A DNA stretch of 64,000 bases. Source: Roseovarius sp. S88 (lineage in GTDB: Bacteria > Pseudomonadota > Alphaproteobacteria > Rhodobacterales > Rhodobacteraceae). The translations under genes were made by a program, and so were the position numbers. The notes beneath the pieces were generated by a model. That model was not told where the DNA came from and did not search any database. It worked only from the letters and a program-made list of their open reading frames with translations. The stretch is taken from contig NZ_CP146069.1 in the NCBI RefSeq assembly GCF_037023735.1, positions 1,157,501 to 1,221,500 of the forward strand. Reading direction: 5' to 3'. Position 1 is the stretch's first letter, and every line of letters begins with the position of its first letter. Shown here piece after piece: positions 5,895 through 31,654 of the stretch.

Positions 5895-6556
5895 CGCTGC
5901 TCCTTAGGCCTTTCGGTGACAAAGGCCAGATTGTTGGCCGGCATGTCTTCTATGGTATGAACCTGTAATCCGGCGGCTTTGACCCAAGCTACCACATCGG
6001 CGTCGTTCTTGTACCCAATCTCCGGGTCCTGCGCCTGCAAACTTGCGTGAAACCGCCGATCTCCTTCTGACGTCGCAGACCCGTCCCGTAGAAACGGACC
6101 ATAGAAGATGAATCTGCCTCCAGGCACCAAGGCCTGAGCGGCCTCGGAGATCAGAATGCGCGCTTTCGGCGTCGAAATAAGATGCAGCAGGTTTACAAGA
6201 AGTATGAGCGCAGTCTGCCTGTGATCCGCGTGCCAACCGGGCAGGGTGGCATCAAGGTGAACCGATGGTTCAATGTTGCCCAGGTGAGTCTCCCGCGCCC
6301 AAAGGTTGATACTTGCCAGCCGGTCTTTGGCCACATCAGTGGGGTGCCAGATAAGCCCCGGCGTAACGCGCGCAAATTGCGCTACATGCTGGCCCGTGCC
6401 GCTGGCTATTTCCAACGCATGCCCGTCTTGCGGCGCGTGTTTTTGAAGCAAAGCCGCGATGGCATCGGCGTTGCGCTCGGCAGCAGGAGCATGCATGCGC
6501 CCCTCTTCATCAGCATGCGCCACAGAGATGCGCGGTGGAGGCGGGGAGTCTGGCAT
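5891..6556 (-). CDS. DUF938 SAM-dependent methyltransferase-like protein
   Basis: A 221-residue protein with a class I SAM-binding motif, ALEIASGTGQHVAQFA, at about residues 47-62. It also has the DUF938 hallmarks: RMHAPAAERNADAI near the N-terminus, HPTDVAKDRLASI, and LVPGGRFIFYGPFLRDG in the second half. The methyl acceptor of this family is not known to me. It is translated with the downstream lysozyme gene (4-base overlap). The region upstream of its start is shared with the divergent Hint-domain gene. Confidence 0.82.
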   Translation of the reverse strand: MPDSPPPPRISVAHADEEGRMHAPAAERNADAIAALLQKHAPQDGHALEIASGTGQHVAQFARVTPGLIWHPTDVAKDRLASINLWARETHLGNIEPSVHLDATLPGWHADHRQTALILLVNLLHLISTPKARILISEAAQALVPGGRFIFYGPFLRDGSATSEGDRRFHASLQAQDPEIGYKNDADVVAWVKAAGLQVHTIEDMPANNLAFVTERPKEQR

Positions 6557-6726
6557 CAGAGACCTTCACGGTTGATTAAGAGCTTTGTGCCTATGCTAAA
6601 GCTTGTCGCAGCGTTGAAAAGTGGCGAAAACCCGGCTTTCGGCACAGGAATTCCCTACTTCGACCCCAAATGCGGCGCATTGACCTAGAATTCTCAACAA
6701 TAGCTGAGGACGAATGGGAGTTTCAC

Positions 6727-7368
6727 ATGGGCTATGTCGCTTCGATCACTGCACGGACAAAAACCAACCGTCGGTATCTGACCGGGATTTGTGGCGAGGC
6801 CAATGTGCGCACGCCGCTTGGTGGACGTCGCATCGAGATGCTCAATCCGGGCGACATGGTTGTGACGCGCAACAACGGCTTACAGCCTGTGCGCATGATC
6901 TGGAGCTGGACCGTGACCGCAGACGAGATGCGCGCGCACCCTGAACTTGCCCCAATCCGTCTCAAGACTCGCGCGATTGGTCCGATGATGCCTGGGCGCG
7001 ATCTGCGCATAGCCAGCGGTCACCGCGTTCTCATTCCCGGCTACCGCATTGCCGGATCAGAAGACAATCAAGGCTGCCTGATGCGTGTCGACGGAGTGGC
7101 GCATAACAGTGACAAGGCCTTTGCCGAGCGTACCGCAGAGGAAGTAACTTACTACAACGTGGTCTTTGATCAGCACGAAGTGATCACCGCCGAAGGGCTT
7201 CCGGTTGAATCTTTCCTACCATCTCCCAAGGCGCTTAACCTTCTGGATGTCTCGGCTCAGCAGGCGTTGAAAGAACTCTTCCCGGTTCTCAGCAGCCGAC
7301 GTTGTGCCTATCCTGGCCTGTCGGTGCCCGTCGCCCGCGCGAGTGCGTATCTGGCGCAGACGGCGTAA
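6727..7368 (+). CDS. Hint (hedgehog/intein-type) domain protein
   Basis: I chose the ATG at 6727 because GGGAG lies about 9 bases upstream. The frame is open back to 6670, but that segment looks like leader. The 213-residue product is almost entirely a Hint_2-type domain: a first-position cysteine in GICGEANVRTPLGG, RIEMLNPGDMVVTRNNGLQP, then RIASGHRVLI and VVFDQHEVITAEGLPVESF. Hint domains form the self-splicing fold of inteins and hedgehog proteins. In roseobacters they often occur at the ends of secreted repeat proteins, but here the domain stands alone with no visible partner. The C-terminal His-Asn pair of inteins is absent, so splicing is not expected. Function is unknown. Confidence 0.75.
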   Translation: MGYVASITARTKTNRRYLTGICGEANVRTPLGGRRIEMLNPGDMVVTRNNGLQPVRMIWSWTVTADEMRAHPELAPIRLKTRAIGPMMPGRDLRIASGHRVLIPGYRIAGSEDNQGCLMRVDGVAHNSDKAFAERTAEEVTYYNVVFDQHEVITAEGLPVESFLPSPKALNLLDVSAQQALKELFPVLSSRRCAYPGLSVPVARASAYLAQTA

Positions 7369-7381
7369 GGCCTCAACGCGC

Positions 7382-7415
7382 TAGACTTGGCCGAATAGAT
7401 GGCAGGCCAAGTCTA
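7382..7415. terminator. Hairpin between convergent genes
   Basis: A perfect 11-base inverted repeat, TAGACTTGGCC (7382-7392) and GGCCAAGTCTA (7405-7415), with a 12-base loop. It lies between the convergent Hint gene and the methyltransferase gene. There is no clean T run on either side, so its action as a terminator is inferred from position. Confidence 0.5.
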
Positions 7416-23143: not shown

Positions 23144-23667
23144 CAAGCGTCTACGCGCAGATTTTGGGCGCTGAAGGGCTGGTGGCGTTGGCACCGGAAT
23201 GCCGAGTTTTGCATGAAAGCATGGGCCGGTTCGAGGGTGAGATTACGGTTGAGATGACGCGTAACCCGTTCTTGCGATTGGCCTTGAGATGCGCGGGTTT
23301 TCCAAAGGCGTTCGAACAGGCGCCCCTGAGTTTTACCAAGGAAAAACAAGGGCAAAGAGAGGTTTGGATCCGCCAAATTGGAGATCAGGTGATGCGCACT
23401 GTTCAATGGGTGGAAGACGGGGACATGTTAGCGGAACGCCTGGGCGCGATGACAGCGATCAGCCGCCTATCGCCTGCTTCAGGTGGTCTTGACCTGACAG
23501 AGTGGCAGTTTCGATTTGCAGGTCTTGCTGTGCCGCGTTGGGCTGCGCCGAATGTCATGGCCAGCGAACGACCAGATCAGGGGCTGTATCGCTTCGAGAT
23601 CGCCATTTGCCTGCCTTGGAGTGACAAGCCCATCGTGCGCTATCATGGTTGGTTGGCCACAAGTTAG
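23140..23667 (+). CDS. DUF4166 domain protein
   Basis: I chose GTG 23140 (MTSVYAQILGAEGLVALAPE) because it overlaps the previous stop by 4 bases; the upstream open frame lies inside the DCC gene. The 175-residue product begins with the DUF4166-typical LAPECRVLHESMGRFEG and continues with WIRQIGDQVMRTVQW and LPWSDKPIVRYHGWL. It has no signal peptide or membrane segment. Function is unknown; in this arrangement it partners the DCC protein. Its stop overlaps the convergent phnX stop. Confidence 0.72.
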   Translation: MTSVYAQILGAEGLVALAPECRVLHESMGRFEGEITVEMTRNPFLRLALRCAGFPKAFEQAPLSFTKEKQGQREVWIRQIGDQVMRTVQWVEDGDMLAERLGAMTAISRLSPASGGLDLTEWQFRFAGLAVPRWAAPNVMASERPDQGLYRFEIAICLPWSDKPIVRYHGWLATS

Positions 23668-24446
23668 GTCGTGTCCAACCGGCGTACGAGTTCGGGCAAA
23701 TCCGCCACTGTGTCGATGACATGATCTGCGCCTGCATCTACAAGGATTTTTGTGGCATGCGCGCGTAGTGTGGCGATTTCAGTCTCGGACAAAGCCACCA
23801 ATTCCTGAGGCGTTTTTCCGACCGCGTTCCCGGACAGCGCTACGCCAACAGTCACGCATCCTGCCGAAACGCCTTCGGCAATGCCCGGTGCGGTATCATC
23901 TACTTTGAGGATTGAATCGGGCGGATAAGCCGCCAGATCAATCATGCATTGATACATCCCTAACGGTCCGGGTCGCCCTTCGGGCAGATCATCGGAACAC
24001 ACCAGATTGTCCGGCACGTACCCCTGTGCCGCTGCGACAGGCAGCACGTTTTCCATGATTGAGCGGGTATATCCGGTGGTCGAGCCAATCTTGAGACCCA
24101 TCTTGCGCAATGCCGCTATGGCTTCGGCACAGCCGGGCACCAGATCCGCATACTCCGCCGCAACCTTTTCATTCATCGGAACGAAAACCTTGTAGACCTC
24201 ATCGACATCGGCATCTGTCGGGGCACGCCCATGCGCATCCTGCCATTGCCGCGCGATGGAGGGCATGTCCATCATCACTCGGATGTGGTCCCATTTGGCC
24301 ACGCCCATCGGCGCGCGGGCTTCATCGATTGTGACCGTGAGACCGAACTCTGCAAAGGCTTTGACAAACACGCCCATCGGGGCGAACGACCCAAAATCAA
24401 CGGTTGTACCGGCCCAGTCAAAGACGACAGCAGTAAAACGGGACAT
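23664..24446 (-). CDS. phnX: Phosphonoacetaldehyde hydrolase (phosphonatase)
   Basis: A HAD-superfamily enzyme of 260 residues. The nucleophile motif is VVFDWAGTTVDFG, and the cap lysine that forms the Schiff base is in MGVAKWDHIRVMM. IGSTTGYTRSIMENVLP and ILKVDDTAPGIAEGVSAGC complete the HAD motifs. It hydrolyses phosphonoacetaldehyde to acetaldehyde and phosphate. I chose ATG 24446 (AAAGGA upstream); a TTG at 24452 is also possible. The usual partner transaminase phnW is not in this window, so its substrate source must be elsewhere. Confidence 0.92.
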   Translation of the reverse strand: MSRFTAVVFDWAGTTVDFGSFAPMGVFVKAFAEFGLTVTIDEARAPMGVAKWDHIRVMMDMPSIARQWQDAHGRAPTDADVDEVYKVFVPMNEKVAAEYADLVPGCAEAIAALRKMGLKIGSTTGYTRSIMENVLPVAAAQGYVPDNLVCSDDLPEGRPGPLGMYQCMIDLAAYPPDSILKVDDTAPGIAEGVSAGCVTVGVALSGNAVGKTPQELVALSETEIATLRAHATKILVDAGADHVIDTVADLPELVRRLDTT

Positions 24447-24511
24447 GAGCAACGGTTCCTTTCTTTCAGCTCGAACGCACTGGCCTGCAAGGTGAAGAGA
24501 AGTTTGACAGG

Positions 24512-25525
24512 CTACAGCCCTTCAAAGAAAGCCGTCAGGTTGTGGCCAAGGGCGTCGGAGACATATCCGCCTTCCTGTACGAGAACCAGTGGCAGCCCAG
24601 TGCCTGCGATGGTCGATGCGATCCGGGTAAAGCCCTGCGTGCTTACCGCCAGGCCTTGGAACGGGTCATCTTCATGCGCATCAAGGCCCAAAGCAACCAC
24701 GATGGCCGTCGCCCCGAAGTCGGAAATCGCACCCAATGCTGTGTCCAATGCTGTCAGAAAAACGGCGTCGTCACTGCCGCGCATCAAAGGCAGGTTGAGA
24801 TTTGCCCCCTCACCTTGCCCTTCTCCGCGTTCTTCTGCATGGCCCCAGAAGAAAGGATAAAACCCATCCGGATCGGCATGGATCGAAACGGTCAGCACGT
24901 CGCCACGTGCATAGAATATGCCTTGTGTGCCATTGCCGTGATGCACATCCACATCCAATATTGCAGGGTGCATCCTATGATCCAGCAACCGCTGCGCCGC
25001 GATGGCGGAGTTGTTCAGAAAGCAAAAGCCGCCTGCCTGATCGGCATAGGCATGATGCCCTGGCGGTCGGCAGAGCGCATAGGCATGTCTGTCGCCCGCC
25101 AGAACCGCATCCGTCGCGGCAATGGCCGATTGTGCCGAGGCGTAGGCCGACATGTAGGTGTGCGGCCCGATTGGACAGGCCGTATCAGCCTGATGGTAGC
25201 CGGCCTGACCCACTGCTGAGCTGGGATAGCCATCGCTGCGCGCGCGGGGGTGCACATTTGGAATGACCTCCGGCGCGGCGCCTGGCAGGACTTTCCATCT
25301 TTCGTGAATCGTCTGCAAAAAGGTCAAATACCGCGCGTCATGCACCGCCGCGATGGGCGCCAAACCCGCATCAGGTGGCGTATGAAAAATAGCTCCCGCA
25401 TCTTCTGCCCCTTTTCGCAAAAGCTCAATGCGCTCAGGGCTTTCCGGGGATGGTTTGATTACGCCCTGGTGAAGGAAGTTCTGCGGATGATGCGCGGCTT
25501 GTGCGGAATCGAGAAAAACTTTCAT
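24512..25525 (-). CDS. Histone-deacetylase-family amidohydrolase (acetylpolyamine deacetylase-like)
   Basis: A 337-residue arginase-deacetylase-fold enzyme. CRPPGHHAYADQAGGFCF holds the catalytic histidine pair, ILDVDVHHGNGTQGIF and GLDAHEDDP supply the zinc ligands (Asp, His, Asp), and EGGYVSDAL has the transition-state tyrosine. Bacterial members mostly deacetylate acetylpolyamines or other small amides. Its start lies 95 bases from the divergent Rieske-glutamate-synthase operon. ATG 25525 is preferred; a GTG at 25534 would add three residues. It follows phnX on the same strand after about 65 bases. Confidence 0.87.
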   Translation of the reverse strand: MKVFLDSAQAAHHPQNFLHQGVIKPSPESPERIELLRKGAEDAGAIFHTPPDAGLAPIAAVHDARYLTFLQTIHERWKVLPGAAPEVIPNVHPRARSDGYPSSAVGQAGYHQADTACPIGPHTYMSAYASAQSAIAATDAVLAGDRHAYALCRPPGHHAYADQAGGFCFLNNSAIAAQRLLDHRMHPAILDVDVHHGNGTQGIFYARGDVLTVSIHADPDGFYPFFWGHAEERGEGQGEGANLNLPLMRGSDDAVFLTALDTALGAISDFGATAIVVALGLDAHEDDPFQGLAVSTQGFTRIASTIAGTGLPLVLVQEGGYVSDALGHNLTAFFEGL

Positions 25526-25620
25526 GCCTGACACTCAAATCAGATCACGTTTTTTCTGTAAACCTAGCCTTACAAATTCAAATGCAGCAACATCGCGACA
25601 AATCAAGTTAAGGGAATCGC

Positions 25621-27231
25621 ATGAAAAAAGTCTCGGTCGCTAAGTTAGACACCCTGCCGGATCGCAAACCACAATACGCGCTGGTGGGTGAGGTAGACCT
25701 CGTGGTGGTGCGATTTGATGAGGAGGTGTCGGTGATGTATGGCCGCTGCCTGCATCGTGGGGCGCTCATGTCGGACGGTTTTGTGCAGGGCGATAACCTG
25801 ATTTGCGGACTGCACTACTGGGATTACCGTCTCGACTCGGGCGTGTCGGAATATAACAACGCCGAAGTACTGCCAAAATTCACCTCCTGGACTGATAATG
25901 GTGAGGTTTGGGTAGATGAGGATGAAATCAACGCCTGGGCCAAAGATCACCCCCAACCGTTTCAGCGCGATGAGTACTTAGGCCTTTATGCCGACACGAG
26001 CCACGGCACGGAAGAAGAGCCGCATAACGCACTTGTTCAGCGCTACGCACGCGAAGGACTTTCCAAAACAGGCCATCACGGCGTGGTCGACAGCATGGGG
26101 GTGCCGCGGGCCGAGCTGCCGGATTGGGATGACATTCAGATCATCACCGCGCAACTTCATCGCGCGCCGCTTCTGGACGACGACCCAGTAAGCACAGAGG
26201 TTGTGATCGGCCCGAATGCACAGAAGCCCTTAACACTTGATATCCCGCTCTTCGTCTCTGACATGAGCTTTGGCGCTTTGAGCGAGCCGGCCAAATTGGC
26301 ACTGGCGCGCGGGGCAGAGCTTGCCGGAACCGGGATTTGCTCAGGCGAGGGTGGCATGCTGCCCGAAGAGCAGGAAGCCAACAGCCGCTATTTCTATGAG
26401 TTGGCCTCGGCCCGGTTCGGATTTGAGTGGGATAAGCTGGACCGAGTGCAAGCCTTTCATTTCAAAGGCGGGCAGGGGGCCAAGACCGGCACGGGCGGGC
26501 ATCTGCCCGGAGCCAAGGTCAAAGGCAAGATCGCCGATGTGCGTGGACTTGAAGAGGGGCAGGACGCGATCTCGCCTGCGCGCTTCCCGGAATGGACAGA
26601 TCCCAGCCAGATCAAGGACTTCGCTGATCAGGTGCGCGACCGCACAGGCGGTATCCCAATCGGCTTCAAGCTCAGCGCGCAGCATATTGAAAAGGACATA
26701 GACGCGGCCCTAGAGGTGGGCGTGGACTATATCATTCTCGATGGGCGCGGCGGCGGCACAGGGGCCGCACCGCTCATCTTCCGTGACAATATTTCGGTGC
26801 CGACCATTCCAGCCTTGGCACGGGCGCGACGGCATTTGGACCGCCTTGAGCGCGGCGATGTGAGCCTTGTCATCACAGGCGGGTTGCGCAAGCCGGTTGA
26901 TTTTGTGAAGGCGATGGCGCTGGGCGCGGATGCTGTGGCGCTGTCCAACTCAGCCATGCAAGCGATCGGCTGTATCGCCATGCGTGCCTGTCACACCAAT
27001 AACTGTCCGGTCGGTATCGCCACGCAAAAACCGTATCTGGTGAGCCGTCTGGTGATTGAAAAATCCGCGCGGCAGTTGGCCAATTTCTTTGAGGCTTCGG
27101 TAGAGTTGATGCAGGTGATGGCCCGAGCCTGTGGGCATGATCACCTCTCGAAATTCAACGCAGATGATCTGACTACCTGGAAACGCGACATGGCCGACCT
27201 GTCAGGCGTGGCCTATGGAGGCCTGCAATGA
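25621..27231 (+). CDS. Rieske-fused FMN-binding glutamate-synthase-family protein
   Basis: A 536-residue fusion. Residues 1-110 form a Rieske [2Fe-2S] domain: Cys43-x-His45 in RCLHRG and Cys62-x2-His65 in CGLHYWDY. The rest is the FMN/3Fe-4S domain of glutamate synthase: DMSFGALSEPAKLAL, GEGGMLPEEQ, QGAKTGTGGHLPGAKV, LDGRGGGTGAAP and the cluster cysteines in CIAMRACHTNNCPVGIATQ. It has no glutaminase domain and no NADPH subunit nearby, so electrons probably come from the Rieske domain or another carrier. It starts an operon of six genes and overlaps the next start by 4 bases. It has no membrane segment, so it is cytosolic or peripheral. Confidence 0.88.
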   Translation: MKKVSVAKLDTLPDRKPQYALVGEVDLVVVRFDEEVSVMYGRCLHRGALMSDGFVQGDNLICGLHYWDYRLDSGVSEYNNAEVLPKFTSWTDNGEVWVDEDEINAWAKDHPQPFQRDEYLGLYADTSHGTEEEPHNALVQRYAREGLSKTGHHGVVDSMGVPRAELPDWDDIQIITAQLHRAPLLDDDPVSTEVVIGPNAQKPLTLDIPLFVSDMSFGALSEPAKLALARGAELAGTGICSGEGGMLPEEQEANSRYFYELASARFGFEWDKLDRVQAFHFKGGQGAKTGTGGHLPGAKVKGKIADVRGLEEGQDAISPARFPEWTDPSQIKDFADQVRDRTGGIPIGFKLSAQHIEKDIDAALEVGVDYIILDGRGGGTGAAPLIFRDNISVPTIPALARARRHLDRLERGDVSLVITGGLRKPVDFVKAMALGADAVALSNSAMQAIGCIAMRACHTNNCPVGIATQKPYLVSRLVIEKSARQLANFFEASVELMQVMARACGHDHLSKFNADDLTTWKRDMADLSGVAYGGLQ

Positions 27232-27593
27232 TGGCCGCGGGGCTGGTGATTTTGGCGGAATACTGGCTCATGATGGGTGCAGTTGTCGCGCTGATCTTCC
27301 TTACAATCGGCATTGACCGCATCGATGAAGATGCGCGCGGCGCCTACATCTTTCGCCCACTGCTGGTTCCCGGCGTTTTGCTCATCTGGCCGTTGGTGCT
27401 ATGGCGCTGGTACGCGCTAGAGACGGGTCGCTCCGATGAAACCAAACGCTACAAAGCGGTGCGCGGGGCGCATGGTTTCGTTGCGATTGGCATGGCCATC
27501 TCTATTGCGATCATCATCGCCACGGGGCTCAGCATCAAACAAACCTGGCCCGCTCATGTCGCGCCTGAGCGACTTTCGGAGGCAGGGCAATGA
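27228..27593 (+). CDS. Small membrane protein of the Rieske operon
   Basis: A 121-residue protein with three predicted helices: residues 3-28 (LVILAEYWLMMGAVVALIFL), 43-64 (LLVPGVLLIWPLVLWRWYAL) and 82-103 (HGFVAIGMAISIAIIIATGL). Charged loops ETGRSDETKRYKAVRGAH lie between the second and third. It is not recognised. It overlaps both neighbours by 4 bases, so it is part of a translationally coupled set and may be a subunit that anchors or assembles the redox complex. Confidence 0.7.
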   Translation: MMAAGLVILAEYWLMMGAVVALIFLTIGIDRIDEDARGAYIFRPLLVPGVLLIWPLVLWRWYALETGRSDETKRYKAVRGAHGFVAIGMAISIAIIIATGLSIKQTWPAHVAPERLSEAGQ

Positions 27594-28633
27594 GCGTCAA
27601 GTATATCCCTGTCCAATGGAACCCGAACAAGTGGATCTATGACGGTATTATGCTAGCCGGTGTCGCGGCCTTTCTTTGGATATTTATCCACATCACCCCC
27701 GAAATCCTCAGCCACGAGCGCCCGATCAACAGCCAGGTGCACAACGCCCGCGCCTTTGGGGCCTGCGCATTCCTGATGCTCTCGATCATCCTGGCGATTG
27801 GTCCTCTGGCCAAGCTCGACACGCGTTTCATGCCGCTGCTCTACAATCGTCGCCATTTTGGGGTGATGACCGCTTTTGTCGCGACCGCCCATGCGGGGTA
27901 TATCCTCAATTGGTATTTCGCCTTTTCGTTCGTGCCCAAATGGGATGCGCTGCTTTTGTCAAACACGAACTACGGCCAGCTTTTGGGCTTCCCGTTTGAG
28001 GCGCTGGGGGCGTTGGCTTTGGTGATTTTGTTGATCCTCGCCGCGACAAGCCATGATTTCTGGCTCAAGTTTCTCACAGCTCCAGTCTGGAAGCGCCTGC
28101 ATTACCTGATCTACGCGGCTTATGTCTCCGTGGTCGCGCATATCAGCCTTGGCATCCTGCAAGATCAGCAGAGCCTGTTCTTGCCCATCTTTTTCATCGT
28201 TACGGCTTTCGCTGTCGCACTCCTGCATGTCTGGGCTTTTCTGGCGGAACGCAAAACGGGCGACCCGCTGGCCACAGCGGATGGCGATTGGATGCGCATC
28301 TGTCAGGCGGATGAGATCGAGGAAGGGCGCGCGCGCATCGCGCTTTTGCCCGATGGCAAGCGTGTGGCGGTGTTCAAACATGAAGGCAAGCTTTCGGCCA
28401 TATCGAACGCCTGTGCGCACCAAAACGGCCCTCTGGGTGAAGGGCGCATCATTGATTGCCTCGTAACGTGCCCCTGGCACGGGTTTCAATACCGGGTGAC
28501 CGATGGCCAATCCCCGGCACCCTTCACCGAGAAAATTCCAACCTACAATCTGCGTGTCGAGAACGGCGCGGTTCTGGTCGATCCGCATGCCAACCCGCCC
28601 GGCACGCATGTTGATCCTGTCGAGGTGGCGTGA
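27590..28633 (+). CDS. Ferric-reductase-like transmembrane domain fused to a Rieske domain
   Basis: A 347-residue protein. The first 230 residues hold about six membrane helices like MsrQ/YedZ ferric-reductase-type domains, with candidate haem histidines in RRHFGVMTAFVATAHAGYIL and RLHYLIYAAYVSVVAHISLG. Residues about 240-330 are a cytosolic Rieske domain with CAHQNGPLGEG and CPWHGFQY (CxH, Cx2H). This suggests electron flow between the membrane quinone/haem side and a soluble Rieske cluster. Direction and partner are inferred. It is coupled by 4 bases to the previous gene and 1 base to the next. Confidence 0.85.
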   Translation: MSVKYIPVQWNPNKWIYDGIMLAGVAAFLWIFIHITPEILSHERPINSQVHNARAFGACAFLMLSIILAIGPLAKLDTRFMPLLYNRRHFGVMTAFVATAHAGYILNWYFAFSFVPKWDALLLSNTNYGQLLGFPFEALGALALVILLILAATSHDFWLKFLTAPVWKRLHYLIYAAYVSVVAHISLGILQDQQSLFLPIFFIVTAFAVALLHVWAFLAERKTGDPLATADGDWMRICQADEIEEGRARIALLPDGKRVAVFKHEGKLSAISNACAHQNGPLGEGRIIDCLVTCPWHGFQYRVTDGQSPAPFTEKIPTYNLRVENGAVLVDPHANPPGTHVDPVEVA

Positions 28634-29397
28634 TGTCTGACAATAAAGACAAACCGTTTTTCGTAGGCTACCTGACTGCTCCTGACGGATTGCGCAGTTT
28701 CCTCATCGGGATCGGCATTGGCTTGGTGTTGCTCATGGCAGGCGTGGGCCTTGGCATTGGGGCCACACAGGATGATCCCGGCAATGGCGCCTTTCGGGGC
28801 GACTATGGCCGCCAAACCGTAACTGGTGTGATGGAACTGACACCTTATCCCGTGGTGCGTGTCACCCAAGGCAGCGAACATGTCCCTGAGGGGCACACGC
28901 TCATGCTTTCGGCAGGCGGCAAACAAAGCCTGATGAACCGGGTGCGGGATTTGGACGGCGAGCTTGTCACGGTCTCCGGCACTATTCTGGACCGGGGCGA
29001 GTTGGACATGATGCAGGTGCGCGGCGGGCAGAATGGCATTGCGAGAGCGGAAGGCGACGCGCCGGAGATGGAAAGCGAAGACCTGGGGCGTTGGCGCATT
29101 GCAGGTGAGATTTGCGATGGAAAATGTCTGGCTGGGGCGATGCGCCCTGGCACAGGTATTGCGCATAAGGCTTGCGCCAACCTCTGTCTGATCGGAGATA
29201 TCCCACCGGTCTTCGTCAGCACGCAGCCCGTCGAGGGCAGTGAATTTCTGTTGGTCGTCGGCCCGGGTGGCACGATTTTCCCGAAATCCGCCTATGACCT
29301 TGTTGCGGCCTATATTTCGGTAGAGGGCAAGGTGGTGCGCCATGGTGATCTTCTGGTGTTCCATCTGGAGCCGGACACAGCGGAGCTGGTGCAATGA
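28633..29397 (+). CDS. Membrane-anchored protein with a CxxxC-H-CxxxC motif
   Basis: A 254-residue protein with one membrane helix (residues 21-44, SFLIGIGIGLVLLMAGVGLG) and two beta-rich segments that look like OB-type barrels (TVTGVMELTPYPVVRV, LVTVSGTILDRGELDMMQV; then LLVVGPGGTIFPKSAYDLVA, YISVEGKVV). Between them lies EICDGKC followed by HKACANLC (Cys161, Cys165, His178, Cys181, Cys185), a likely metal or cluster site. I do not know a name for it. ATG 28633 shares a base with the upstream stop. The domain is probably periplasmic. Confidence 0.72.
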   Translation: MSDNKDKPFFVGYLTAPDGLRSFLIGIGIGLVLLMAGVGLGIGATQDDPGNGAFRGDYGRQTVTGVMELTPYPVVRVTQGSEHVPEGHTLMLSAGGKQSLMNRVRDLDGELVTVSGTILDRGELDMMQVRGGQNGIARAEGDAPEMESEDLGRWRIAGEICDGKCLAGAMRPGTGIAHKACANLCLIGDIPPVFVSTQPVEGSEFLLVVGPGGTIFPKSAYDLVAAYISVEGKVVRHGDLLVFHLEPDTAELVQ

Positions 29398-29663
29398 TCC
29401 GGCGGCTGATCTGGACCGGAATTGCAGCCACCGCCGGTTTTGCCCTTCTCTACATTTCCCGCTTTTGGGTGTTTCAACTTTGGGGCCGTGAGGGGCTTTT
29501 CGGTATCGAGGCTCTACGCCCCCAGGGCGGATTGCTGGCGCGATGGCTGCGCGGCACGGATTTCGCTGATTTTGAACTGGTGATCTGGGTCGTGCTCAGC
29601 TTCCTGACCCTCACCATTCTGCAAAAACTCTATGACCTAACCAGTGGCGGGAGCCACGAGTGA
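29394..29663 (+). CDS. Small two-helix membrane protein of the Rieske operon
   Basis: An 89-residue protein with helices at about residues 5-22 (LIWTGIAATAGFALLYIS) and 62-78 (LVIWVVLSFLTLTILQK) joined by a loop with FWVFQLWGREGLFGIEALRP. It is not recognised. Overlaps of 4 bases on both sides place it firmly in the operon. It may be an accessory subunit of the membrane Rieske protein. Confidence 0.68.
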   Translation: MIRRLIWTGIAATAGFALLYISRFWVFQLWGREGLFGIEALRPQGGLLARWLRGTDFADFELVIWVVLSFLTLTILQKLYDLTSGGSHE

Positions 29664-29674
29664 AAGGAAAAGAC

Positions 29675-31654
29675 ATGGCCAATGAAGCACTTGACTGGAT
29701 TTCCGTGGGCTATGTCGAGGACTTGCCCGAAGGCCGCGTGAAAACTGTCACGGCACGCACCACCTCGATCTGTCTGGTGCATTTCGACGGACAATGGGCG
29801 GCGATGGACAACCGCTGCCCGCATCAGAATGGACCTCTTGGCGAAGGCTCCATCGAAAAAGGCGTGGATGACCAATGCTGGGTGCGCTGCCCCTGGCATG
29901 GCTGGGATTTTGATCCGCTGACCGGTAAACCTCCCGGCGGGCACGAAGACACCGGACAAAAGATGTTTCCGATTGACGTGCGTGATGGAGAGATTTTTGT
30001 AGGGTTGGAGCCGGAACCAGAGGCCCCGCGCACAATCAGTGACGCGATGGTCGAAACCTTTGTGAACTGGGGACTGAAGTCTGTTTTTGGCATGGTGGGG
30101 CATTCCAACCTTGGCCTCGCCGAAGCCATCCGGCTCAAGGTGGGCAGCAAAGATCTCAAATACTATGGCATCCGCCACGAAGGAGCCGCAGCTTTCGCCG
30201 CCTCTGCTTACGGCAAGCTCACGGGCATGCCCGCAGGGTGCCTGACCATTGCAGGTCCTGGAGCCACCAACCTTCTGACCGGAATGTGGGACGCCAAGGT
30301 GGATCGCGCCCCCGTGCTGGCGCTGACGGGGCAGGTGCAGACCCAGGTGCTTGGCCCCGGTGCATTTCAGGACATTGATCTGGCGTCTGCCTTTGCCGCT
30401 GTGTCCCGCTTTTCACAACCGGTCTTGGGCGGGGCCAACGCCGTTGAGTTGGCCGCACTGGCCTGCAAAAACGCCATCATCAATCAAGATGTCGCGCATC
30501 TCATCTTCCCCGATGACGTGCAAACCGTGCCCTCCGACAAGCCTGCAAGCCATCCCGAGGGCCGTATCAGCCGCGTGGATGTGACACCATCTGCATCCGA
30601 CCTTGACGCTGCAACGGACAAGATCAATGCCGCCAAACGGCCCATAATCATTGTCGGCCACGGTGCCTTTGATGCGCGCGAAAAAATCATTGCATTGGCT
30701 GAGAAACTTGGTGCGCCAGTGCTGACCACGTTCAAGGCCAAAGGCCTGATCCCCGATGATCATCCAAATGCCGCAGGCGTTCTGGGCCGGTCAGGCACGC
30801 CCATTGCCAGCTGGTTTATGAATGAAACTGATCTTATCATAGCTCTGGGCGCAAGCTTCTCAAATCATTCGGGAATTGAACCCTCCAAGTCGATCATTCA
30901 GGTCGACTATGACCGGATGCAATTGGGTAAATTTCACCCGGTTGACCTTCCCGTCTGGGGAGAGGTCGGTGTTTTTTGCGACTCCATGGCTATCCGCGTC
31001 AAACCGAACACCAAAGCCGTTGATCAGGTCAACGAACTGGCCGACCGCTGGCGCATCTGGCGGGATGAAAAGACCATGCGCCTGACAGAGGATCACGGCA
31101 CCGGCCTGCATTCCGCGGCGGTGTTCAAGGCGCTTTCGGAACTTGCACCTGATGACGCAATCTTTGCTGTGGATGTGGGCAACAACACCTATTCCTTTGG
31201 CCGCTATCTGGAAACCAAAGGCACACAACGCGTTCTTATGTCTGGCTATCTTGGCTCTATCGGCTTTGGTCTTCCCGCAGCATTGGGTGCCTGGGCCGCG
31301 GCGCAGGATTTTGACGCCCTCAAAGGGCGCAAGGTCATTTCGATTTCCGGCGATGGCGGCTTTGGTCAGTACCCGATGGAGTTCACCACAGCCGTGAAAT
31401 ACGGCATGAACATCACCCATCTTCTCCTGCATAACGGTCAGTTGGGCAAAATTTCCAAAGAACAACGCGCTGGGGAATGGCCGGTGTGGGAGACGGACTT
31501 GGTGAACCCGCCTTTTTCCGCCTTTGCACGGCTCTGCGGCGGTATCGGCGAAAAGGTCACCGAAGCCGATCAGATTGCACCAGTGCTCAAGGAGGCCCTG
31601 GCGGCTGACGGCCCGGCGTTGGTCGAATTCATGACAGATGCGGAGTTGGTTTAG
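29675..31654 (+). CDS. Rieske-fused thiamine-diphosphate enzyme (acetolactate-synthase-like)
   Basis: A 659-residue fusion, begun at ATG 29675 because AAAGGA lies 6 bases upstream; GTG 29660, overlapping the previous stop, is the alternative. Residues about 1-115 are a Rieske domain (RCPHQNGPLGEG and RCPWHGWDF). The rest is a three-domain ThDP enzyme: GIRHEGAAAFAASAYGKLTG with the cofactor-activating glutamate, PGATNLLTGMWDAKVDRAPV, a central Rossmann-like domain, and ISGDGGFGQYPMEF to HNGQLGKI as the ThDP/Mg motif. Such enzymes decarboxylate or carboligate 2-oxo acids. The fused cluster suggests that electrons are drawn off the intermediate, as in pyruvate:quinone oxidoreductases. The substrate is unknown. 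Confidence 0.86.
   Translation: MANEALDWISVGYVEDLPEGRVKTVTARTTSICLVHFDGQWAAMDNRCPHQNGPLGEGSIEKGVDDQCWVRCPWHGWDFDPLTGKPPGGHEDTGQKMFPIDVRDGEIFVGLEPEPEAPRTISDAMVETFVNWGLKSVFGMVGHSNLGLAEAIRLKVGSKDLKYYGIRHEGAAAFAASAYGKLTGMPAGCLTIAGPGATNLLTGMWDAKVDRAPVLALTGQVQTQVLGPGAFQDIDLASAFAAVSRFSQPVLGGANAVELAALACKNAIINQDVAHLIFPDDVQTVPSDKPASHPEGRISRVDVTPSASDLDAATDKINAAKRPIIIVGHGAFDAREKIIALAEKLGAPVLTTFKAKGLIPDDHPNAAGVLGRSGTPIASWFMNETDLIIALGASFSNHSGIEPSKSIIQVDYDRMQLGKFHPVDLPVWGEVGVFCDSMAIRVKPNTKAVDQVNELADRWRIWRDEKTMRLTEDHGTGLHSAAVFKALSELAPDDAIFAVDVGNNTYSFGRYLETKGTQRVLMSGYLGSIGFGLPAALGAWAAAQDFDALKGRKVISISGDGGFGQYPMEFTTAVKYGMNITHLLLHNGQLGKISKEQRAGEWPVWETDLVNPPFSAFARLCGGIGEKVTEADQIAPVLKEALAADGPALVEFMTDAELV

Follow-up and report, generated by a model that had tools for sequence, protein, structure and literature searches.

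Organization of the six-gene locus

We analyzed a stretch of 64,000 nucleotides from Roseovarius sp. S88 (contig NZ_CP146069.1, positions 1,157,501 to 1,221,500; here called the window), in which six co-directional genes, designated g1 to g6, occupy positions 25621 to 31654 of the plus strand. Three of their products carry a Rieske domain, joined in g1 to a flavin mononucleotide (FMN) glutamate-synthase-type domain, in g3 to a ferric-reductase-type membrane domain, and in g6 to a thiamine diphosphate (ThDP) enzyme. An open reading frame (ORF) check of the window found all six genes at the places given in a preliminary description of this DNA, and the junctions are as tight as was claimed there: ATGA overlaps of 4 bases occur at 27228, 27590, and 29394, the g3/g4 junction at 28633 is TGATG with an overlap of 1 base, and 11 bases separate the g5 stop codon (29663) from the likely ATG of g6 (29675), for which the mechanical ORF start is an in-frame GTG at 29660. 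The G+C content is 0.580 for the operon and 0.577 for the whole window. The features of the locus are as follows.

25621..27231, plus strand: g1, Rieske and FMN glutamate-synthase-type domains, 536 amino acids (PF00355, PF01645)
26971..27006, plus strand: C-x5-C-x4-C of g1 (residues 451 to 462), predicted [3Fe-4S] cluster; three cysteines in 33/33 sequences
27228..27593, plus strand: g2, 3-helix membrane protein, 121 amino acids (hydropathy; g3 preceded by homologues or by small membrane genes)
27590..28633, plus strand: g3, ferric-reductase-type transmembrane domain (YedZ/MsrQ-like) and C-terminal Rieske domain, 347 amino acids (PF01794, PF00355)
28633..29397, plus strand: g4, anchored, predicted extracytoplasmic protein (hydropathy; 18-sequence alignment; adjoins g3)
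29116..29187, plus strand: g4 motif D-x-K-C...M...H-x2-C-x3-C (residues 162 to 185), invariant in the alignment of 18
29394..29663, plus strand: g5, small membrane protein, 89 amino acids (homologues after g4 in loci L013, L015 to L019, and L152)
29675..31654, plus strand: g6, Rieske domain and ThDP enzyme of the pyruvate oxidase/acetolactate synthase superfamily, 659 amino acids (Pfam, NCBIfam, PDB match, 87-sequence conservation)
31448..31450, plus strand: codon of the invariant Lys592 of g6 (alignment with Escherichia coli pyruvate oxidase; Lys in 87/87)

Pfam agrees with the earlier domain calls, assigning Rieske and Glu_synthase to g1, Ferric_reduct and Rieske to g3, and Rieske and TPP_enzyme_N/M/C to g6, and C-x-H...C-x2-H ligands are present in all three Rieske domains. 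No Pfam match above the cut-offs was obtained for g2, g4, or g5. Hydropathy supports the three helices described for g2 and one N-terminal anchor in g4, and it detects five of the six helices expected in g3. The product of g5, described as a two-helix protein, is a membrane protein with one helix above the threshold. Similarly, the description of g4 as an anchored CxxxC protein holds for the anchor and fails for the motif, the first cysteine of which (C161) is not conserved in distant rows of the alignment. Between positions 25400 and 31900, promoter-like sites (4 versus 2.7 expected; standard deviation, 1.8) and terminator-like sites (11 versus 6.5; standard deviation, 2.5) were counted, and none was used as evidence.

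Conservation of the gene order

The six-gene order is shared by the window and loci L013, L015, L016, L017, and L019, which come from two families of the class. The operon-bearing genomes besides that of the window are G008 (same genus), G137, G221, and G246 (same family), and G085 (another family, represented by L019, with the order unchanged). In the other genera and the other family with this order, identities to the window are 74% to 75% for g6 and 53% to 59% for g4. Such persistence of the order across genera and in a second family is not due to chance. In a third family (L149), g1-g2-g3-g4 is accompanied by a divergent g6, and no g5 was detected; L151 has the order g2-g3-g4-g1, with no g6 in the locus. 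In the g6 tree, the seven copies from the class of the window form one group (support, 100).

Used as a query, g4 matched 3 of 40 relatives (the genome of the window included) and 2 of 24 genomes within the genus. It also matched 8 genomes in a draw of 398 from the phylum, or 7 after G100 was discounted as a weak match (E value, 3e-4) with five in-frame stop codons; loci were fetched from every g4-matching genome other than that of the window. With the threshold set at an E value of ≤1e-100, five of the 398 genomes have g6, and each of them has the operon. The distribution of g1 is broader (86/398 at E ≤ 1e-60). Full-length g1 including the Rieske domain is present in 10 genomes of the draw and, in pieces, additionally in G316 and G174; five of the ten, all of family f53, lie outside the five g6 genomes. 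Many other g1 matches (59% to 73% identity) are limited to the FMN domain. The genome of the window itself has a g1 paralogue of 40% identity (L002).

A large family of Rieske-ThDP proteins

A genome scan with the N-terminal 267 residues of g6, taking an actinobacterial copy as the first row, returned at least 587 stretches, at least 568 of them at E ≤ 1e-3, some of which may be ordinary ThDP enzymes. We examined the best 80 of these, in order of their similarity to the actinobacterial copy. The Rieske-ThDP fusion is kept in all 80, the match starting at g6 residue 24 or earlier and running through the Rieske ligands. By record title, these relatives belong to Actinomycetota, Bacteroidota, Gemmatimonadota, Acidobacteriota, Planctomycetota, Myxococcota, and Dadabacteria, some of the records being binned genomes. 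Copies with 52% to 57% identity also occur on five plasmids, four of them haloarchaeal and one mycobacterial. The g6 protein represents a large family, apparently an undescribed one. Among the matches listed in open-access full texts, there was no Rieske-ThDP enzyme and no such gene set, consistent with the earlier statement that no pathway of this composition has been described.

Conservation was assessed in 87 sequences, i.e., the window copy and 86 matches from 91 loci that were at least 560 residues long, a choice of length that favors intact copies. In all 87, both Rieske ligand pairs, E169, F231, Q232, D560, K592, E596, and Q597 are invariant, and the catalytic glutamate is kept. The best PDB relative of g6 is the E. 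coli pyruvate oxidase PoxB (E value, 6e-91). The match stops at PoxB residue 529 of 572, leaving the last 43 residues of PoxB without a counterpart. Among NCBIfam models, NF006377 scored best (386 bits against a cut-off of 742) and NF006591 gave 292.7 of 792 bits. We rejected an ordinary pyruvate oxidase or acetolactate synthase as the identity of g6, which scores below the cut-offs of all 25 models listed of 60.

Linkage of g6 to g1 and to an alternative FMN protein

The g1 protein was compared over 33 sequences aligned across at least 480 residues, a length that favors copies with the Rieske domain. Invariant in all 33 are the Rieske ligands, the cysteines of C-x5-C-x4-C, which we take to be the [3Fe-4S] motif of glutamate synthases, and K282, Q285, R308, and E243, presumably equivalent to the 2-oxoglutarate-binding residues of ferredoxin glutamate synthase. 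With these cysteines and residues kept, g1 may reduce an imine or a 2-oxo acid. A standard glutamate synthase was rejected for g1, which has no glutaminase domain and scores 127.3 of 1,047 bits with NF008730.

Within the 80 g6 loci, g1 was found in 26 and was adjacent (<300 bp) on the same strand in 21; among these 21, L086 matches the FMN domain only, and L092 and L122 end at contig ends. The Bacteroidota loci L128 and L135 are arranged g1-g6-two small membrane genes-g3-g4, and L125 has the same arrangement without g1. On the haloarchaeal plasmids, the distances between g1 and g6 are 1.4 kb in Salinirubellus, 4 kb in Halorarius, and ~17 kb in Halorubrum; the Haloferax plasmid carries g6 and lies outside the three records with full-length g1. 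Haloarchaeal g1/g6 stretches L060, L061, and L062 also share mercury-reductase, DUF63, glutathione-S-transferase-N-like, M20 peptidase, and quinol-monooxygenase genes. Over 31 loci, the identities of g1 and g6 are correlated (r = 0.85; permutation maximum, 0.28), a value inflated by shared descent.

Partners were searched for genome-wide in 45 of the 80 g6 genomes (34 without g1 in the locus and 11 with it; 35 were left out). An orthologue of g1 is present in 23, one of them cut off by a contig end; paralogues of 38% to 41% identity, the only g1-like genes in five more genomes, were not counted. Sixteen genomes have a flavodoxin-fold FMN_red protein, and none has both it and g1 (Fisher's exact test, P = 1.2e-7, which is too small because relatedness is ignored). 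In the 34-genome subset alone, 12 have g1, 16 have FMN_red, and 6 have neither (P = 3.7e-5, relatedness again ignored). The FMN_red protein was not found in G000, G137, G221, or G085, all of which have g6 and g1. When the FMN-partner labels from loci and genomes were placed on the g6 tree, eight changes were needed, at least six of them forced by well-supported branches, so the choice of FMN partner is not the habit of one clade. The g3 gene is present in 4 of the 45 genomes, all of them Bacteroidota.

A scan of 94 loci revealed a Na_H_Exchanger-family gene (PF00999 in three tested copies) in 21, and in 18 of these the distance to g6 is no more than 3.5 kb. For one copy, CPA1 models were nearest in NCBIfam, with their cut-offs not reached. 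The gene lies just outside the operon in L015 (12882 to 14264) and L019 (5004 to 6275), and it is also seen near g6 or g1 in L061 (13344 to 14576), L125 (8709 to 9950), L138, and 16 further loci.

The membrane module g2-g3-g4

Among 337 genomes of the class, 16 (that of the window included) have g3, and in 15 of the 16 g4 adjoins it. The fetched locus contains g1 in four and g6 in three of these 16 genomes, and in one g3-bearing genome (G121) neither g1 nor g6 was found genome-wide at the thresholds used. As neither g1 nor g6 accompanies g3 in most of these loci, g2-g3-g4 constitutes a separate unit. The g2 position is occupied by two small genes in Rhizobium locus L022 and in Bacteroidota L125, L128, and L135, and the g5 position in L022 holds a different small membrane gene with no tblastn likeness to g5. 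When a Bacteroidota g4 was used as a query on plasmids, only five Rhizobium core loci matched.

In 18 g3 sequences, H89, H101, H155, H171, H184, and H213 are invariant, as is Arg87, located 14 residues ahead of H101. Judged by residue spacing alone, H101, H171, and H184 together with R87 fit the YedZ/STEAP heme-ligand signature described in PMC3591440. A canonical two-heme NOX was rejected, since an arginine sits where, by spacing, the first heme histidine would be. It is likely from the conserved residues that g3 binds at least one heme; it possibly binds two, and the second could be held by H89/H171. With the MsrQ model, g3 gave an E value of 2.2e-9 and 37.2 bits, and the cut-off of 130 was not reached.

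The Rieske ligands of g3 are kept in 17 of 18 rows. In the remaining row, from Tenacibaculum (L135, 12512 to 13546), SPWHG replaces CPWHG, so that one Rieske cysteine is lost as serine; g1, g6, g3, and g4 are all present there. The residues of g4 that are invariant over 18 sequences include D162, C165, M170, H178, C181, and C185, and g4 has no match in Pfam or NCBIfam and none in the PDB below an E value of 0.26. It is thus a conserved cysteine-containing protein outside assigned families.

In L158, a fusion of a Rieske domain with a flavodoxin-fold FMN_red domain (6257 to 7384) starts 12 bases after g3. On a Methylocystis plasmid (L225), the gene that comes next after an NAD-dependent formate dehydrogenase encodes a relative of this fusion (69.5% identity). 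Beside g2-g3-g4, two genomes from a single other genus (L014, 11274 to 16584, and L150) and a Rhizobium plasmid (L022, 704 to 6646) carry a ThDP enzyme, a CaiB-type coenzyme A-transferase, and a TPR protein. This ThDP enzyme has no Rieske domain and was rejected as g6, being a different enzyme; the set is possibly another pathway that uses the same membrane module. In Croceivirga (L125, 14293 to 14745), the end of the g4 gene is overlapped by the gene for a YHS-domain protein that has an apparent signal peptide.

A proposed Rieske-linked system for 2-oxo-acid oxidation

Our preferred, still tentative reading is that g1 to g6 form a Rieske-linked system for the oxidation of 2-oxo acids, PoxB-like with another electron exit. 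The cytoplasmic g6 enzyme would bind a 2-oxo acid on ThDP and decarboxylate it, and the electrons would exit by way of the Rieske cluster at its N terminus and not through a lipid-binding tail to quinone. That the cluster is the exit in place of the PoxB tail is likely from the domain layout; to our knowledge, no ThDP enzyme that uses a Rieske cluster has been described. The electrons would pass to an FMN partner, which is g1 in the window and a flavodoxin-fold FMN protein in other lineages, and g1, with its Rieske, 3Fe-4S, and FMN sites, could spend them on the reduction of a 2-oxo acid or an imine. Where the membrane module is present, the cytoplasmic Rieske domain of g3 may exchange electrons with the b heme or hemes of its YedZ/MsrQ-like core, which may in turn hand them to the extracytoplasmic C/M/H/C/C site of g4, to the quinone pool, or to both, with g2 and g5 as putative small accessory membrane subunits. 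The substrate, its decarboxylation, the direction of electron flow, the membrane sidedness, the heme content, and the g4 metal are all parts of this scheme that we infer. Two unrelated FMN proteins alternate, and a Rieske-FMN_red fusion lies beside g3, which together suggest that g6 and g3 need an FMN partner within reach of a Rieske cluster.

The preliminary description had joined the six genes into a single redox pathway and named two observations that would speak against it, an order confined to close relatives and the independent occurrence of the genes; the second is seen, and the first is not. The order is indeed kept beyond close relatives, and the set recurs unchanged in L019, in part in L149, and in another order in L128 and L135, but the parts also dissociate. 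As an indivisible unit, the six genes are contradicted by the few g1 and g6 genes beside g3 in the class and by the g6 genomes that have FMN_red instead of g1. A functional link among the Rieske-FMN, Rieske-ThDP, and Rieske-heme membrane proteins is therefore supported, and one fixed six-gene pathway is supported only in part.

Several observations weigh against the oxidation system as proposed. (i) Lys592 of g6 aligns with a phenylalanine of E. coli pyruvate oxidase, which we take to be Phe465 with a role in electron transfer, so an invariant lysine at this position means that the known path from ThDP to flavin adenine dinucleotide (FAD) is altered. (ii) Six of the 45 g6 genomes have neither FMN partner, and 21 lack both a g1 orthologue and g3, nine of the latter being actinomycetes. 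(iii) The FMN_red protein also turned up in 4 of 200 genomes from the phylum, with no overlap between these four and the five carrying g6; being found outside g6 genomes, it is no dedicated partner of g6. (iv) Of the 16 class genomes with g3, 13 show no g6 and 12 show neither g1 nor g6 in the fetched locus.

The invariant lysine and the nine actinomycete genomes would also fit g6 as a nonoxidative ThDP lyase or carboligase, with the Rieske domain serving as a structural element or a redox-sensor switch and the link to g1 and g3 reflecting co-regulation. The FAD of acetolactate synthase serves no net redox function, and enzymes of this kind belong to the closer kin of g6. However, all four Rieske ligands are retained in every full-length g6, the recurrent neighbors of g6 include the redox proteins g1, FMN_red, and g3, and no genome of the 45 combines the two FMN partners; we consider a nonoxidative enzyme unlikely, although it survives better than the other alternatives.

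The direction of flow could instead be reversed, with g3 drawing on the quinol pool or on the outside to feed the cytosolic Rieske domains, g1 reductively aminating a 2-oxo acid, and g6 consuming reducing equivalents. The four presumed 2-oxoglutarate-binding residues of g1 and the arrangement of L151, in which g1 accompanies the membrane module without g6, would suit such a scheme. Rieske clusters, however, usually have potentials too positive for strong reductions, and we know of no electron-consuming ThDP enzyme in the superfamily of g6, which makes reverse flow improbable.

We give similarly little credence to a role in stress, be it the detoxification of electrophiles or of reactive species of oxygen, chlorine, or sulfur, with the antiporter maintaining pH or ion homeostasis. 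The exchanger gene close to g6 points that way, as do the mercury-reductase, TauE/SafE, DsrE, or peroxiredoxin genes on the haloarchaeal g6 plasmid stretches, the sigma-70-family sigma factor and chlorite-dismutase-family genes near the Rhizobium core, and the weak MsrQ-model match of g3. Nevertheless, such neighbors vary by lineage, 73 of the 94 loci yielded no exchanger, and Pfam identified no MsrP-like molybdoenzyme in the operon of the window, the only place where one was searched for. Finally, independent functions that are merely co-located in an operon of recently shuffled mobile parts would accord with the rarity of g4 within the genus and the separate occurrence of the parts, but the association recurs in different orders across phyla and the g1 and g6 identities are correlated (with the inflation noted above), making this explanation highly improbable.

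If g6 does use its Rieske cluster, central 2-oxo acids would feed into electron transport by a route additional to those of PoxB, PFOR, and the dehydrogenase complexes. A bolder version, a new class of 2-oxo-acid oxidoreductase that passes electrons from ThDP to a Rieske cluster, with exchangeable FMN partners, a transmembrane heme conduit (in the class of the window and in Bacteroidota) to g4 as a new extracytoplasmic Cys/His/Met metal protein, and an energetic tie to the antiporter, is possible but doubtful.

Neighboring genes

At 23664 to 25534 on the minus strand, a gene for a HAD hydrolase (Pfam), the start of which reads like phosphonoacetaldehyde hydrolase and which we presume to be PhnX, lies next to a histone-deacetylase-like gene. 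The two are also adjacent in the same-genus genomes G006, G012, and G777, with no g1 in the 1.5-kb flank. The PhnX, histone-deacetylase-like, and isoaspartyl methyltransferase genes flank the operon in G008 and have no tblastn match in L015, L016, L017, or L019, and they were rejected as parts of the system. No empty operon site was demonstrable in G006 and G012, in which two flanking genes are ~31 and ~37 kb apart.

Comparison with known systems

With PoxB and the POX-AHAS superfamily, g6 shares the three-domain ThDP enzyme and the catalytic glutamate, GDG, and FQ motifs; it differs in its N-terminal Rieske domain, in having no C-terminal tail, and in the lysine at the Phe465 position. With ferredoxin-dependent glutamate synthase and the stand-alone FMN glutamate-synthase proteins, which we assume to be of the MgsC/GlxD type, g1 has in common the Glu_synthase domain and the 3Fe-4S motif, whereas, unlike ferredoxin-dependent glutamate synthase, it lacks a glutaminase domain and has an N-terminal Rieske domain.

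A closer parallel to the layout of g1 is the type 5 CISD protein, defined in PMC3174974 as a tandem CDGSH unit joined to a glutamate synthase FMN domain. Both have a [2Fe-2S] module ahead of a shared FMN domain, which in Vibrio fortis is 70% identical to that of g1. The V. fortis copy (L063) has two CDGSH motifs where g1 has the Rieske domain and corresponds to the type 5 CISD described there.

The g3 protein has the ferric-reductase transmembrane domain of YedZ/MsrQ and the FRD superfamily, and, judged by spacing, perhaps also their arginine in place of the first heme histidine (PMC3591440, PMC5676040). A figure legend in PMC3591440 gives, as architecture M4, an FRD core that carries Rieske and FMN-binding domains, so that a fusion such as g3 is not in itself a novelty. 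In contrast to YedZ/MsrQ, g3 does not reach the MsrQ cut-off, and its partner gene is g4 and not a molybdoenzyme gene.

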